DNA from: Gemmatimonadota bacterium
GTDB taxonomy: Bacteria > Gemmatimonadota > Gemmatimonadetes > Gemmatimonadales > Gemmatimonadaceae
Assembly (NCBI GenBank): GCA_027307165.1
Contig: DAHUXM010000016.1
Span: 246,874 to 310,873, forward strand
Direction: 5' to 3'
DNA length: 64,000 bases
The position numbers and the translations under genes are program-made. A model generated the notes under the pieces. The model searched no databases and was not told the origin of the DNA. It saw only the letters and a program-made list of their open reading frames with translations. Shown here piece after piece: positions 286 through 13,812 of this stretch. Numbering within the stretch: the stretch's first letter is position 1; every line of letters begins with the position of its first letter.

Positions 286-1740
286 CTAGAAAAGCCCCAC
301 TTGTCCTTTGACCGACGCGATCAATTTGGCCGGGTCGTATCCGACGCCCTGTCTGAAGACCAATTCGACCTTTCTGATGTCAGAGACGTTCGTGGCCGGG
401 TCGCCGTTAATGACGACCAGATCCGCCTGCTTGCCCGTGACAATCGAACCGATCTCGCTCGCTCGCCCCAGATACGTCGCGCCGTTCAGTGTGCAGATCT
501 TTATCGCTTCGAGAGGCGTGAACCCGCTTCCCACGAGCAACTCGACCTCCCGCTGGTCCGAGTAGCCGGGAATGACCCCGCCCGCTCCGGTCGGATCGGT
601 GCCCGCTATCAACAGGCCGCCCGCGCGCGCGAACTGAAGCTCCATCGCACGGTCCTTCGCGAACAGCGTCGAATAGATGGAATGCTCGTTCCCCTGCACC
701 GTCGCGTAGAACTTCTCGAATCGCTGCTTGAGTATTGGGTCCAATACATCCAGACCGGGCGGCATCGGCTGGCCGGGAGTGAACGTCTCGAATACCGTGA
801 GGGTGGACGTTATCGCAACGTGATGCGCGATCAGGTCGGCGATCAGCGATTTGAATTGTGCACCATTCGGATCGACAGCGGCCATCGACGCCATTCCGGC
901 GGCCTGTCCGGGGCAGACGTCAGGTTTCTTCGACGTATCAAAATCCGTTGATACAAAGAAGCCGTGCTCCAGATCGTCGATCCCTGCCGCAATCGCTTCA
1001 CGATAAGTCACCGAGCAGAGATGTCCGGTGATCTTGAACCCGCGCTTGTGCACCTCGTCCACCGCGGCCGCAAGCTCTGCGCGCGTGATGTTCATGTACG
1101 CCTTGAACGACGTCGCCCCCGCGTCGGCCCAGAAATCCACCATGCGACGCGCGTCGTTCGCATCCTTGAGCTCGTACATCTGGCCGATGCCGAGCCCCGG
1201 CCCCTGCAGATACGGCGCGCTCGCATCTATCCACGGGCCAGGTTTCTCTCCATTCCTTATCGCGCGCGCAATGTTGATCTCGCCATAGCCGTTCACGTTG
1301 CCACCAGTGCGCATTGACGTCACACCACCGGCGAGATACAGACGCGTGAAACTCTCCGCCACATTGCCGTACACACCCGGACCCGTCGGATAGAACAGAT
1401 GCTCGTGCATCATCACGAGACCGGGAATTACCGACTTTCCTGTAAGATCGAGTACCAGCGCGTTCGCCGGTGGCTTGATCGCCGCGCTGTTCCCCAGCTC
1501 GGCGATCTTCCCATCACGCAGAATCAGCGTCTGGTCGACACGCGGTTGGGCGCCGGTTCCGTCGATCACGCGCACGTGAGTCAGCGCAACTACCGATGTG
1601 TCGACCGTCACGTACTGCCGGACGTTGCGTGACAGTACGGGCCGCTGCGCAGCCATCACACTCGGCGCAGCAAAGAGCGGCGCCGCCAGCGCCAGCACCA
1701 GCGCGCACGTCGCCATCGGAGGATGTTTCGAAGTCTTCAT
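286..1740 (-). CDS. Secreted metal-dependent amidohydrolase (imidazolonepropionase-like)
   Basis: A 484-residue amidohydrolase-superfamily protein. The N-terminus has a positively charged start and a hydrophobic core ending AAPSVMAAQ near residue 32, a typical Sec signal, so the enzyme should act in the periplasm. The first metal motif HEH is at 112-114. Further candidate metal ligands are K213 (carboxylated lysine position, SFKAYMN), H240, H259 and D382 (AGTDPTG). The N- and C-terminal strands (VIDGTGAQP, ADLVVINGDP) form the small beta-sandwich usual in this family. Related secreted enzymes act as dipeptidases or on cyclic amides, but the substrate cannot be named here. The stop directly abuts the Maf start. 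Start choice is the first ATG, in front of the signal peptide. Confidence 0.88.
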   Translation of the reverse strand: MKTSKHPPMATCALVLALAAPLFAAPSVMAAQRPVLSRNVRQYVTVDTSVVALTHVRVIDGTGAQPRVDQTLILRDGKIAELGNSAAIKPPANALVLDLTGKSVIPGLVMMHEHLFYPTGPGVYGNVAESFTRLYLAGGVTSMRTGGNVNGYGEINIARAIRNGEKPGPWIDASAPYLQGPGLGIGQMYELKDANDARRMVDFWADAGATSFKAYMNITRAELAAAVDEVHKRGFKITGHLCSVTYREAIAAGIDDLEHGFFVSTDFDTSKKPDVCPGQAAGMASMAAVDPNGAQFKSLIADLIAHHVAITSTLTVFETFTPGQPMPPGLDVLDPILKQRFEKFYATVQGNEHSIYSTLFAKDRAMELQFARAGGLLIAGTDPTGAGGVIPGYSDQREVELLVGSGFTPLEAIKICTLNGATYLGRASEIGSIVTGKQADLVVINGDPATNVSDIRKVELVFRQGVGYDPAKLIASVKGQVGLF

Positions 1741-2430: not shown

Positions 2431-2751
2431 ATGACTACCTCACCCATCGCCTGCACGCTCGCCTCGGAAGACTACGCGGACAGGTTGGCCTGGATCGGCC
2501 GACTGAATAGAGAGTCGCTGCGCACCCATCGTCTGGACGGTGTGACCTTGGAATTGGTGTACGATCGCACTGCCAGCGACCAGGTCCGCGAGCTGGTGCG
2601 GCGAGAAGAGAGGTGCTGCGCGTTTCTGCGCTTCAGCGTGGATGAGACTGGAGGCGCGATTCGTTTGCTTATCGAGGCCCCGGCCGAAGCCTGCGATTCG
2701 ACAGGCACAATGACGAGTACGCTATTCGCGCCTTTTCTGGCCGGTTCTTGA
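2431..2751 (+). CDS. Small vicinal-cysteine protein of ars/mer gene neighbourhoods
   Basis: Starting at ATG 2431 gives 106 residues beginning MTTSPIACTL. An upstream in-frame extension exists but its sequence is unlike the family. The pattern IACTL at the N-terminus, a charged helix, and REERCCAFLRFSV with adjacent cysteines C62-C63 matches a family of small uncharacterised proteins that I recall being encoded beside arsenic and mercury resistance genes. Other cysteines are C8 and C88. The stop codon overlaps the -35 box of the ACR3 promoter, so this gene precedes the arsenite exporter in the same direction but is transcribed from elsewhere. The vicinal thiols could bind a soft metal or metalloid such as As(III). 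That role is inference. Confidence 0.75.
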   Translation: MTTSPIACTLASEDYADRLAWIGRLNRESLRTHRLDGVTLELVYDRTASDQVRELVRREERCCAFLRFSVDETGGAIRLLIEAPAEACDSTGTMTSTLFAPFLAGS

Positions 2752-2777
2752 CACATCAACATTTCTTGATGTATCAT
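2748..2777 (+). promoter_or_regulatory. Sigma70-type promoter with ArsR-type operator between -35 and -10
   Basis: TTGACA at 2748-2753 and TATCAT at 2772-2777 are separated by 18 bp. The spacer holds a perfect inverted repeat, ACATCAA / TTGATGT with a 6-nt spacer (2753-2772). Its core, ATCAA-N6-TTGAT, matches the pattern I recall for ArsR operators of ars operons. A repressor bound here would block RNA polymerase directly. The expected start of transcription is near 2784, giving a leader of about 50 nt before acr3. Confidence 0.75.
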
Positions 2778-2819
2778 TCGGTGATCCACTTGCCGTCCTG
2801 TTCTTTATTTACGCGATAT

Positions 2820-2835
2820 ATCAACCAAACTTGAT
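2820..2835 (+). promoter_or_regulatory. Second ArsR-type operator overlapping the acr3 start codon
   Basis: A second perfect ATCAA-N6-TTGAT lies at 2820-2835, centred 65 bp from the first, about six helical turns, so the two sites would face the same side of the DNA. It overlaps the ATG of acr3 at 2834. No Shine-Dalgarno sequence is seen in front of that ATG. The site also overlaps a CGATATATC word (2814-2822) that recurs before padR. Confidence 0.65.
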
Positions 2836-3934
2836 GGACGCAAATACCTCAGGCTGGTCGCCGACGTCCGCCCTGGACGCGCCCGTCCTCCGGCGCCTGT
2901 CCAGGCTGGATCGCTTCCTCCCGCTCTGGATATTCGCAGCCATGGCGAGCGGTATCGCGCTCGGACGAGCGTTCCCTGGATTGGGCGCGCTGCTCGACCG
3001 GGTGCAGGTGGCCGGCGTGTCGGTGCCAATCGGCATCGGACTGCTCTGGATGATGTATCCGGTGCTCGCCAAGGTGCGCTACGAGAGCATCGGTGCGCAC
3101 GTGGCCGATCGCAAACTGCTGGGCACTTCCCTGGTGCTGAACTGGGTGATCGGCCCCGTCGTCATGTTCGCGCTGGCGTGGCTGCTGCTTCCGGATCTGC
3201 CGCATTATCGCGACGGACTCGTTCTGATCGGGCTCGCACGGTGCATCGCGATGGTCCTGATCTGGAACTCGCTTGCGTGCGGCTCTGCAGAGCTTGCCGC
3301 TGTCCTCGTCGCACTCAACTCCGTCTTCCAGATTCTCACCTACTCTTTTCTGGGATGGCTCTTTCTCACGGTCGTCCCGCACTGGTTGGGAGCTGACACG
3401 ACTGCGCTTCACGTGTCGATGTGGCAGATCGCAAGGAGCGTTCTGATCTTCCTCGGAATCCCACTCCTCGCCGGATATCTCACGCGGCGGACGATGGTGG
3501 CGAAACGCGGTGAGACATGGTACAACGAGAGCTTCATCCCGCGCATCGGTCCGACTGCATTGCTGGGATTGCTGTACACCATCGTGCTGATGTTCGCGAT
3601 GCAGGGAACGCGCATCCTTCAGCTTCCAGTGGACGTCCTGCGAATCGCGATCCCGCTGGTCGTGTACTTTTGCATAATGTTCGGGCTTGCCTTCGTGCTC
3701 TCGATGAAGCTTGGGTTCAGCTACGCCGAAACGGCGTCTCTCTCCTTCACGGCGGCTGGCAACAACTTCGAGCTTGCGATTGCCGTGGCTATCGCGACAT
3801 TCGGCATTGCCTCCGGTGAAGCGCTCGCTGCGGTGGTGGGTCCGCTGATCGAAGTGCCTGCGCTGGTCGGTCTGGTTTACGTGTCGCTCTGGGCCGGAAG
3901 GCGTTATTTCCAGACGTCGCCCGCAGCGACGTAG
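2834..3934 (+). CDS. acr3: ACR3-family arsenite efflux permease
   Basis: A 366-residue polytopic membrane protein with about ten hydrophobic segments. It carries the ACR3 hallmark GLARCIAMVLIWNSLACG with the conserved thiol C137, and the late motif FTAAGNNFELAIAVAIA with E313. The C137-E313 spacing (176) equals that of the essential Cys129/Glu305 pair reported for the Alkaliphilus ACR3. The protein exports As(III) across the inner membrane using the proton gradient. A TTG three bases upstream is in frame, but the ATG at 2834 is preferred. The gene sits behind an ArsR-type promoter and is followed 12 bp later by a phosphoesterase gene. No arsR or arsC is found within the window. Confidence 0.92.
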   Translation: MDANTSGWSPTSALDAPVLRRLSRLDRFLPLWIFAAMASGIALGRAFPGLGALLDRVQVAGVSVPIGIGLLWMMYPVLAKVRYESIGAHVADRKLLGTSLVLNWVIGPVVMFALAWLLLPDLPHYRDGLVLIGLARCIAMVLIWNSLACGSAELAAVLVALNSVFQILTYSFLGWLFLTVVPHWLGADTTALHVSMWQIARSVLIFLGIPLLAGYLTRRTMVAKRGETWYNESFIPRIGPTALLGLLYTIVLMFAMQGTRILQLPVDVLRIAIPLVVYFCIMFGLAFVLSMKLGFSYAETASLSFTAAGNNFELAIAVAIATFGIASGEALAAVVGPLIEVPALVGLVYVSLWAGRRYFQTSPAAT

Positions 3935-3946
3935 CCACGACGAATC

Positions 3947-4729
3947 ATGCGTTACGCGCTCATGTCAGACATCCATGGGAACCGGCCGGCGCTCGAAGCC
4001 GTGCTCGCCAGCATTCGCACGCGCGGCGACGTTGATGGCACGTACCATCTTGGCGACCTGGTTGGATACGCGCCCTGGCCAAACGAAGTCTGCGAGATCA
4101 TCGCCCGCGAAGGAATTCCCGGCGTCGCCGGCAATTACGACTCGACAGTCGCGAATGACTACACGCACTGCGGCTGCAGGGCCGAGGACCAGCATCAGGA
4201 AGAACTTGCACACCAGAGTTACGAGTGGACACGGGAACACGTCAACGCAACGACCAAGGCGTTTCTTCGCGCACTCCCCTTCCGCATCGACATTCGTCCA
4301 GAGGGGGGACATGTCGCTGGTCCGACGGTGACGCTGGTGCACGCAACGCCACTCAACAACCTGATCTACGTCGATGAGAGCCGGCCGGACGCGTTCCTGA
4401 CGAAGATGGCGGAGGTGGCCAAACTCAAAAGGGGCGATGTGCTTGCATTCGGGCATACACACAAGCCGTGGCGCCGCACGGTGGGAGGAGTGCATTTCAT
4501 CAATACGGGAAGCGTCGGACGGCCAAAGGATGGTGACTGGCGAGCCGCCTACGTTCTGCTCGAGGTCGCCGCGACAACGGCGCGAGCGGAGGTAGTGCGC
4601 GTCGAATACGATGTCGACGAAGCGGTGCGCGGGATCCGCGACAGCATGCTTCCTTCGGAGTTTGCAGAATTTCTGGAAACGGGCGGTAAACCGCTCGCGG
4701 CTACGACTCCCCGCCCCGACGACTCATGA
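3947..4729 (+). CDS. Calcineurin-like metallophosphoesterase (YfcE/MJ0936-like)
   Basis: The 260-residue protein shows the full metal-binding set of the family: SDIHGN (D8, H10), GDLVGY (D37), GNYD (N63), VHATP (H132) and FGHTHKP (H170, H172). A CGC motif (C75, C77) after the GNYD block is typical of this bacterial subgroup. These enzymes are two-metal phosphodiesterases or phosphomonoesterases acting in the cytoplasm, and the substrate is unknown. It lies 12 bp after acr3 and its stop overlaps the start of the ABC exporter gene (ATGA), so all three are probably one transcript. A link to arsenic handling is suggested only by position. Confidence 0.88.
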   Translation: MRYALMSDIHGNRPALEAVLASIRTRGDVDGTYHLGDLVGYAPWPNEVCEIIAREGIPGVAGNYDSTVANDYTHCGCRAEDQHQEELAHQSYEWTREHVNATTKAFLRALPFRIDIRPEGGHVAGPTVTLVHATPLNNLIYVDESRPDAFLTKMAEVAKLKRGDVLAFGHTHKPWRRTVGGVHFINTGSVGRPKDGDWRAAYVLLEVAATTARAEVVRVEYDVDEAVRGIRDSMLPSEFAEFLETGGKPLAATTPRPDDS

Positions 4730-12214: not shown

Positions 12215-13054
12215 CTCCTCGGTGAAGAGCGAGTCCATCTCCGCGTAATCGGCTGCACCGGCCAGGAATTCGGCGAAGCTCCCACACGATAATGCCCGGG
12301 CGGCGCGCTGCACCGCAGCAGCAGCCGCTCGGGCGACTCCGGATCCCACACTCACGCGCGCGACACCCAACTTCTCGAGAGCACGAACGTCAGACCCGGT
12401 CGCGCTCGCAAGCACATTGAGTGGCAAACCCGCGTGTTTCACAATGTCCCTTACGACGTCCGGACTCTGCACGCGTGGCACGAACACACAATCCGCACCG
12501 GCAGCACGAAACGCATCCAACCGCTCGAGACAACGCTCCAACCGCGTCTCTTCATGACCGACGGAGAGCCAGAACACGTCAGTTCGTGCGTTCACGACCG
12601 CGCCGTCACGGAGACCTGCGCCGGCGTCCGCTGCCTCTCGCGCAGCAGCTATCCGCTCGCGTTGCAGCGATATTTCGAACAGCGGTGAGTCGCCGCCATC
12701 GCCAGTTGCATCCTCGATGTTCACGCCAACAGCACCGGCGTCGATCGCCAGCCGTACCGTTTCCGCGACAGACGCCGGCGAAACACCGTACCCCGCTTCG
12801 ATGTCGGCCGTTACAGGCAGGCTCGTAGCAGACGCGATTCGCTCGACCGCCGCAAGCATCTCATCGCGCGGAATCTTCTGTCCGTCGGGATATCCGAGCG
12901 ACCACGCGATCCCGGCGCTCGTCGTCCCGACACAGTCGAATCCAGCCATCTCAAACAGACGCGCGCTGACCGCGTCCCATGCGTTTGGAACCACGAGAAT
13001 GGTTGGACCGTGATGTAGAGCGCGGAAAGCCGCGGCGCGGGAGTGAGATGTCAT
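12125..13054 (-). CDS. Isocitrate lyase/PEP mutase superfamily enzyme
   Basis: The 309-residue protein has the superfamily barrel motifs: VVPNAWDAVSARLFE near the N-terminus, TTSAGIAWSLGYPDG, the metal-binding DIEAGYG, GVNIEDATG and VNARTD. The KKCGH motif of true isocitrate and methylisocitrate lyases is absent, so it is better described as a PEP mutase/oxaloacetate-hydrolase-like enzyme of unknown substrate. The last ~30 residues extend past the expected end and overlap the convergent 68-residue gene. It is divergent from an ArsR-family regulator with 53 bp between the starts, a layout that suggests the regulator controls it. Confidence 0.85.
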   Translation of the reverse strand: MTSHSRAAAFRALHHGPTILVVPNAWDAVSARLFEMAGFDCVGTTSAGIAWSLGYPDGQKIPRDEMLAAVERIASATSLPVTADIEAGYGVSPASVAETVRLAIDAGAVGVNIEDATGDGGDSPLFEISLQRERIAAAREAADAGAGLRDGAVVNARTDVFWLSVGHEETRLERCLERLDAFRAAGADCVFVPRVQSPDVVRDIVKHAGLPLNVLASATGSDVRALEKLGVARVSVGSGVARAAAAAVQRAARALSCGSFAEFLAGAADYAEMDSLFTEELTRQCVISDVEPGEESLDDGPDNGVVLTP

Positions 13055-13107
13055 CGTCCGGGAAGATTAGCCTTCCGCCGCAACCATGCTTCGGTTACCA
13101 TCGAAGT

Positions 13108-13812
13108 ATGCCCGACACGCCCGACATGGCCTTCGTGGCCGGTGCAATCGCTGACCCCACCCGGGGCCGCATGCTGATGTCCCTCATGCGCGGCCAGGCT
13201 CTCACAGCCACGGAACTGGCCCTGGATGGCGGCGTGACAGCATCGACAGCCAGCAGCCACCTCGGCCGCCTGATGGACGCCGGACTCGTCTCAGTGACAC
13301 GCCAGGGCCGCCACCGCTACTTCCGGATTGCGCGCCCCGAAGTCGCCGAGATGCTCGAAGGGATGGCCAACCTGGCCAGTTCGAGCGGCTCCAGGATCAC
13401 GACCGGCCCGCGGGATCCCGCCCTCCGCCACGCCCGCGTCTGTTATGACCATCTTGCCGGCGAGACTGCCGTCCGGCTTCTCGTGCGCCTCAGAGAGCAC
13501 GAGCTGCTGATCGGCGACGAGGACTCGCTCGCGCTCAGCCCGCGTGGCGAGACATGGGCGGCCGCACTTGGAATCGATCTCCCCGCCCTGCGCACCAGAC
13601 GAAGGATCCTGTGTCGTCCATGCCTCGACTGGAGCGAGCGACGCAGTCATCTCGCCGGCTCACTGGGCGCCGCGATCCTCGAGCGCATGGTAGCGCTACG
13701 TTACGTGCGCCGAACGTCCGGTCGCGCGATTGCGTTTTCCGAGAATGGTGCGCGCCTCATCGACCGCCCCGATACCTTCATTCGCGACAAACTCGTGTGT
13801 CGCGCGGTGTGA
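13108..13812 (+). CDS. ArsR-family regulator with cysteine-containing C-terminal domain
   Basis: ATG 13108 (MPDTPDMAFVAGAIADPTRG) is chosen over a longer frame, because the winged helix starts at once. Residues 8-88 form the ArsR HTH, with recognition helix ASTASSHLGRLMDAGLV and wing RQGRHRYF. Residues 100-234 form an extension with VCYDHLAGE and CLDWSERRSHLAGSLGAA, seen in a large ArsR subgroup of unknown ligand. The classical metal-binding CVC box is missing. Divergent placement from the PEP-mutase-family gene, with a small CTTCG/CGAAG inverted repeat at 13089-13106, suggests local and auto-regulation. It is not a convincing arsenic sensor. Confidence 0.85.
   Translation: MPDTPDMAFVAGAIADPTRGRMLMSLMRGQALTATELALDGGVTASTASSHLGRLMDAGLVSVTRQGRHRYFRIARPEVAEMLEGMANLASSSGSRITTGPRDPALRHARVCYDHLAGETAVRLLVRLREHELLIGDEDSLALSPRGETWAAALGIDLPALRTRRRILCRPCLDWSERRSHLAGSLGAAILERMVALRYVRRTSGRAIAFSENGARLIDRPDTFIRDKLVCRAV

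Follow-up and report, generated by a model that had tools for sequence, protein, structure and literature searches.

The window, by which we mean the whole 64,000-nucleotide stretch of Gemmatimonadota DNA that was analysed, carries a gene for an arsenite efflux transporter of the ACR3 family, its promoter and three perfect copies of the inverted repeat ATCAA-N6-TTGAT. The genome of the window is referred to as G000, its sister species as G002 and two congeners as G001 and G003. The features at the locus are as follows:

937..952, + strand: third perfect copy of the repeat, ATCAAAATCCGTTGAT, inside an amidohydrolase gene; perfect in G002, absent in the orthologues of G001, G003 and G004
2748..2753, + strand: -35 hexamer TTGACA of the acr3 promoter, from the promoter scan; the same TTGACA-N-operator arrangement stands before arsR
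2755..2770, + strand: operator 1, ATCAACATTTCTTGAT, in the promoter spacer; kept in G002 (N6 changed) and in G001
2772..2777, + strand: -10 hexamer TATCAT of the acr3 promoter, from the promoter scan
2820..2835, + strand: operator 2, ATCAACCAAACTTGAT, in the presumed transcribed leader; perfect in G002, absent in G001
2834..3934, + strand: acr3, ACR3-family arsenite efflux transporter, 366 aa (TIGR00832, PF01758)

The acr3 product scores 425.9 bits against TIGR00832 (cut-off 282.8), and its start can only be the ATG at 2834 or the TTG at 2831, because there is no other in-frame ATG, GTG or TTG before the conserved part. The promoter TTGACA/TATCAT matches the consensus at 11 of 12 positions and is the only sigma-70-like site that the scan found in 2600-4000; its 18-bp spacer consists of operator 1 plus one flanking base on each side, and the palindrome of operator 1 extends to 2753-2772 (ACATCAA..TTGATGT). 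Operator 2 begins 43 bp beyond the -10 hexamer, which by position only places it downstream of the expected transcription start, and covers the first two bases of the acr3 ATG. The first-pass annotation had reported both repeats, the one between -35 and -10 and the one over the start codon, at exactly these positions, and its observation that the start lacks a Shine-Dalgarno sequence holds as well, none being visible upstream. Its count of two repeats stands for acr3 but missed the copy at 937-952, which lies 1.8 kb upstream of operator 1 in the amidohydrolase gene (286-1740, - strand) and is a possible auxiliary operator. Dinucleotide shuffles yielded 0.03 motif matches per window, and none of 100 reached three. 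An ORF of 106 aa (2431-2751) containing RREERCCAFLRF, whose stop codon overlaps the -35 box, had no match in Pfam, NCBIfam or PHROGs.

The window was said to contain no arsR gene; this is correct as far as a metal-sensing ArsR is concerned, although the window has, at about 12970-13809, an HTH_5-domain ORF that lacks a CxC motif. The regulator had been predicted to act from elsewhere, and a search of the whole genome (3.7 Mb, 37 contigs) for the motif and for an ArsR with a CxC box recovered both. Fourteen proteins with an HTH_5 domain exceed the Pfam cut-off, two of them with CVC, one being encoded by an arsR gene on contig C37 (54743-55087). Its product of 115 aa contains ERCVCEL, i.e., a CxC in the metal-binding box, and belongs to the ArsR/SmtB winged-helix proteins (NF033788, 101.1 bits, cut-off 55; PF01022). 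A perfect operator lies 27 bp before the start of this gene in the context TTGACA-T-ATCAATAAATATTGAT, in agreement with the earlier reading of the repeats as ArsR-type operators, and a second operator is found just before the neighbouring arsM gene:

L010:4641-6035 (G000, contig C37): arsM (NF008823, 348 bits) fused C-terminally to ArsN2 (NF040501, 129 bits)

In the congener G003, arsM and arsN2 are separate, overlapping ORFs. The exact composite TTGACA-N-ATCAA-N6-TTGAT, with no mismatch allowed, occurs only twice in the genome, once before acr3 and once before arsR, and therefore ties acr3 to the ArsR of contig C37. The site before acr3 thus combines the core consensus ATCAAN6TTGAT with overlap of an ars gene promoter, as expected of an ArsR-type operator.

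With so many HTH_5 proteins, two of which have CVC, the sites might instead be bound by another ArsR/SmtB protein, or by two such proteins at once. The other HTH_5 proteins were rejected as candidates, all lacking CxC except one on contig C6, and that one lacks an upstream site: no ATCAA-N6-TTGAT with up to two mismatches was found in the 250 bp before its gene. Its recognition helix also differs from that of the C37 protein (KQPTVSHHLKLL vs AQSRLSFHLKVL), and the arsM-linked ArsR is the only one whose own promoter contains the motif, as it does in nearly all relatives. We therefore regard binding by another family member, alone or jointly, as very improbable. This second CxC protein (CVCDL; L020, contig C6, about 49276) is encoded beside a gene for a GNAT acetyltransferase resembling the ArsN1/phosphinothricin type.

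The C37 ArsR would not be assigned to the R773 type 1 As(III) site on its sequence, as CVCELQDTL lacks the third cysteine (residue C37 of R773). A comparison of 30 arsR loci, comprising that of this genome and those of its relatives (L093-L122), showed CVC in the ArsR of all 30, again without the third R773 cysteine, and a C-terminal pair of cysteines in 29, which is a possible arsenite site of a different kind. The promoter operator is present in 28 of these loci (expected about 0.03), usually between TTGAC and a TATA-like -10, and the arsM-proximal second operator in 21 (expected about 0.05), followed by the arsM start within a few tens of bases wherever that start is readable; the background was a single motif match in 89,259 positions. 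Both operators are found in 19 arsR-arsM operons, 368-452 bp apart. Across the phylum, the exact TTGAC composite occurs in 48 of 200 genomes (none for a reversed-pattern control), and 27 of 30 composites inspected precede a CVC ArsR.

Comparison of the acr3 promoter among relatives, which the first-pass annotation had also proposed, showed that G002, whose Acr3 is 98 percent identical, keeps both operators at a spacing of 64 bp with a different sequence between them, and that G001 (Acr3 90 percent identical) keeps operator 1 but has no operator 2. The genome thus encodes an ArsR, and the repeats were not both lost in close relatives, the two outcomes that had been named as counting against the original proposal. 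The small ORF upstream of acr3 is missing in G002. The closest named relative by Acr3 is the Gemmatimonadetes MAG fen_1247 (90 percent identical), and a contig search of 80 Acr3 homologue loci gave a perfect site at one, which matches G001. In G003 the gene order is arsR-arsM-arsN2-acr3, with acr3 directly after arsN2, and in G004 arsR-arsM-acr3. Because the operators are kept in relatives and the joined operon exists in G003, acr3 probably left an arsR-arsM-arsN2-acr3 operon while retaining control by ArsR in trans; the simplest history suggested by these gene orders is that the detachment took place in the lineage of G000, G001 and G002, a direction of change that we infer. The unlinked acr3 genes of G006, G007 and G009 have no operator, and trans control of acr3 is therefore not general in the family.

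We consider it very probable that the two palindromes are operators of the C37 ArsR, one occluding the promoter and the other acting as a roadblock, both released by arsenite. Binding of ArsR to the acr3 operators and their response to arsenite are what we infer from the arrangement. In the absence of arsenite, operator 1 would be occupied by an ArsR dimer that covers the promoter spacer and excludes RNA polymerase, since the site lies between -35 and -10, and another dimer, bound to operator 2 in the leader and over the start codon, would halt leaked transcripts and so lower the basal level. Arsenite bound by the cysteines of ArsR would release it, and arsR-arsM-arsN2 and acr3 would be induced together; acr3, probably once the last gene of the operon, would have gained its own operators on moving.

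Within this explanation we favour the roadblock for operator 2 with some reserve. It is the plainest reading because the site is downstream of the expected start, like the arsM-proximal sites, but it rests on analogy with them because operator 2 precedes acr3 only in the two sister species. In engineered E. coli circuits, ArsR bound downstream of a promoter is an established roadblock (PMC3918153, PMC10310618). The palindrome might also act as RNA, folding over the start codon and limiting translation: the predicted stem contains the AUG of a gene for which no Shine-Dalgarno sequence was seen, and the 77-nt leader folds better than its shuffles (z -2.2). However, the hairpin alone is predicted at -2.4 kcal/mol and is not unusual (z -1.1), the arsM leader has no such fold (z +1.0), and operators with identical arms are found in arsR promoters, ahead of where transcription begins. 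Control by an RNA hairpin is thus possible but weak as a candidate, and we deem it the least probable of the readings considered.

A further possibility is that operator 2 works together with operator 1, by looping or by cooperativity between ArsR dimers side by side, and does not form a roadblock. The first-pass annotation had assumed that both sites lie on one helical face; 65 bp corresponds to 6.19 turns, about 69 degrees off phase, so that this can be approximate only, and the 64 bp of G002 correspond to 6.10 turns (34 degrees off). The 19 arsR-arsM pairs likewise have no significant common phase (R 0.34, Rayleigh p about 0.12), which leaves looping by helical phase unsupported, and a loop of 65 bp would be short. 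We know of no bridging by ArsR dimers. The recurrence of an identical-core pair, 65 or 64 bp apart, in two species and the third copy 1.8 kb upstream do speak for cooperation, as does the Synechocystis precedent, in which a single promoter region likewise has two such repeats bound by ArsR (PMC4585019). Taken together we regard cooperation of the two sites in place of a roadblock as unlikely.

The motif itself is known: ATCAAN6TTGAT is the core ArsR consensus (PMC9137774), and in footprinting the unlinked Synechocystis ArsR bound ATCAA(N)6TTGAT (Lopez-Maury 2003, cited by PMC4585019); that ArsR controls an Acr3-type gene, the arsB of arsBHC (PMC4010505). The combination of this motif with an unlinked ArsR over an Acr3 gene is therefore already known, and the acr3 arrangement described here is close to it. 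In Synechocystis PCC 6803, too, ArsR is encoded apart from a target set that includes an Acr3-type gene, and two ATCAA(N)6TTGAT repeats lie in the promoter-operator region (PMC4585019). In contrast, the second site here lies 65 bp downstream, over the start codon, acr3 stands outside any arsBHC operon, and arsM has an operator, whereas the Synechocystis arsM has none. The ars operator of Paracoccus denitrificans shares ATCAAN6TTGAT-type sites just before a start codon, but its two sites overlap by 8 bp and precede the ars operon itself (PMC9137774). Thermus thermophilus has dispersed arsenic genes under trans control of the promoter-overlapping ArsR/SmtB repressor TtSmtB, whose operator (TTGCTCAA) and targets are different (PMC5658604). 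Engineered E. coli bioreporters carry a second ArsR site in the transcribed region, downstream of arsR, which lowers the background (Stocker 2003, as cited in PMC3918153 and PMC10310618); these are man-made with the E. coli operator, whereas the site before arsM in 21 of 30 arsR loci is natural. A limited search of the open-access literature turned up no account of an arsM-proximal operator that is natural and conserved across an order.

The motif with its 6-base spacer occurs 13 times in the G000 genome, against a mean of 1.6 when the spacer has any other length between 0 and 16. Four are the sites of acr3, arsR and arsM; the other nine are:

eight perfect intragenic copies: C7:70148, C7:167565, C28:214745, C28:271177, C30:247810 (= window 937-952), C35:1761, C37:64278, C37:241263
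one csoR-adjacent copy: L006:4190-4205 (C7:166689), ending 2 bp before the start codon of a CsoR-like gene

The latter gene follows copA, a heavy-metal P-type ATPase gene. csoR was rejected as a conserved member of the regulon, as its site is present in G000 and G002 and absent, with up to one mismatch, from the other 21 csoR loci examined. Head-to-tail repeats of ~40 bp (catgaccaccaattcggcgcgtgggtcggcgtcgtcgcg) lie between csoR and a hexosaminidase gene (L006:4680-4830).

The spacers of the intragenic copies have 25 percent G+C vs 62 percent for the window; three of the eight have a promoter or start-codon copy at a distance of 1-10 kb, and seven share one codon phase (a copy in phase 0 would introduce TGA). 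The copies arise partly through silent codon changes. The nine copies outside the ars genes are all perfect in G002, where, counted by eye, the arms differ at 0 of 90 bases and the flanks at 19 of 216. Spacers and flanks fit an ArsR-operator weight matrix from other genomes better than the non-ars copies of G001 do (p 0.0007, summed score). At alignable orthologous codons in G001, G003, G004 and G007 no intragenic site was found, in places despite unchanged amino acids; one site of G001 falls in a paralogous VPS10-type gene (alignment of 290 bp, 69 percent identity), but G001 shows no surplus of spacing-6 sites once its ars copies are set aside. Being post hoc, with small numbers and with G002 a close relative, these tests pose a question without settling it. 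We suggest only tentatively that the ArsR operator has spread beyond promoters, and that the intragenic copies could serve ArsR as auxiliary operators or as decoys that tune it, or belong to another protein with the same specificity. If they are bound, a new question arises concerning the role of a local metalloid repressor inside genes.

The conserved arsM-proximal operator would be, in nature, an equivalent of the roadblock site with which engineers equip arsenic biosensors. For the Gemmatimonadota, which are common soil bacteria, the analysis provides an arsenic regulon that has a defined operator and can be tested, and it shows how an efflux gene can quit its operon while staying under the same repressor.
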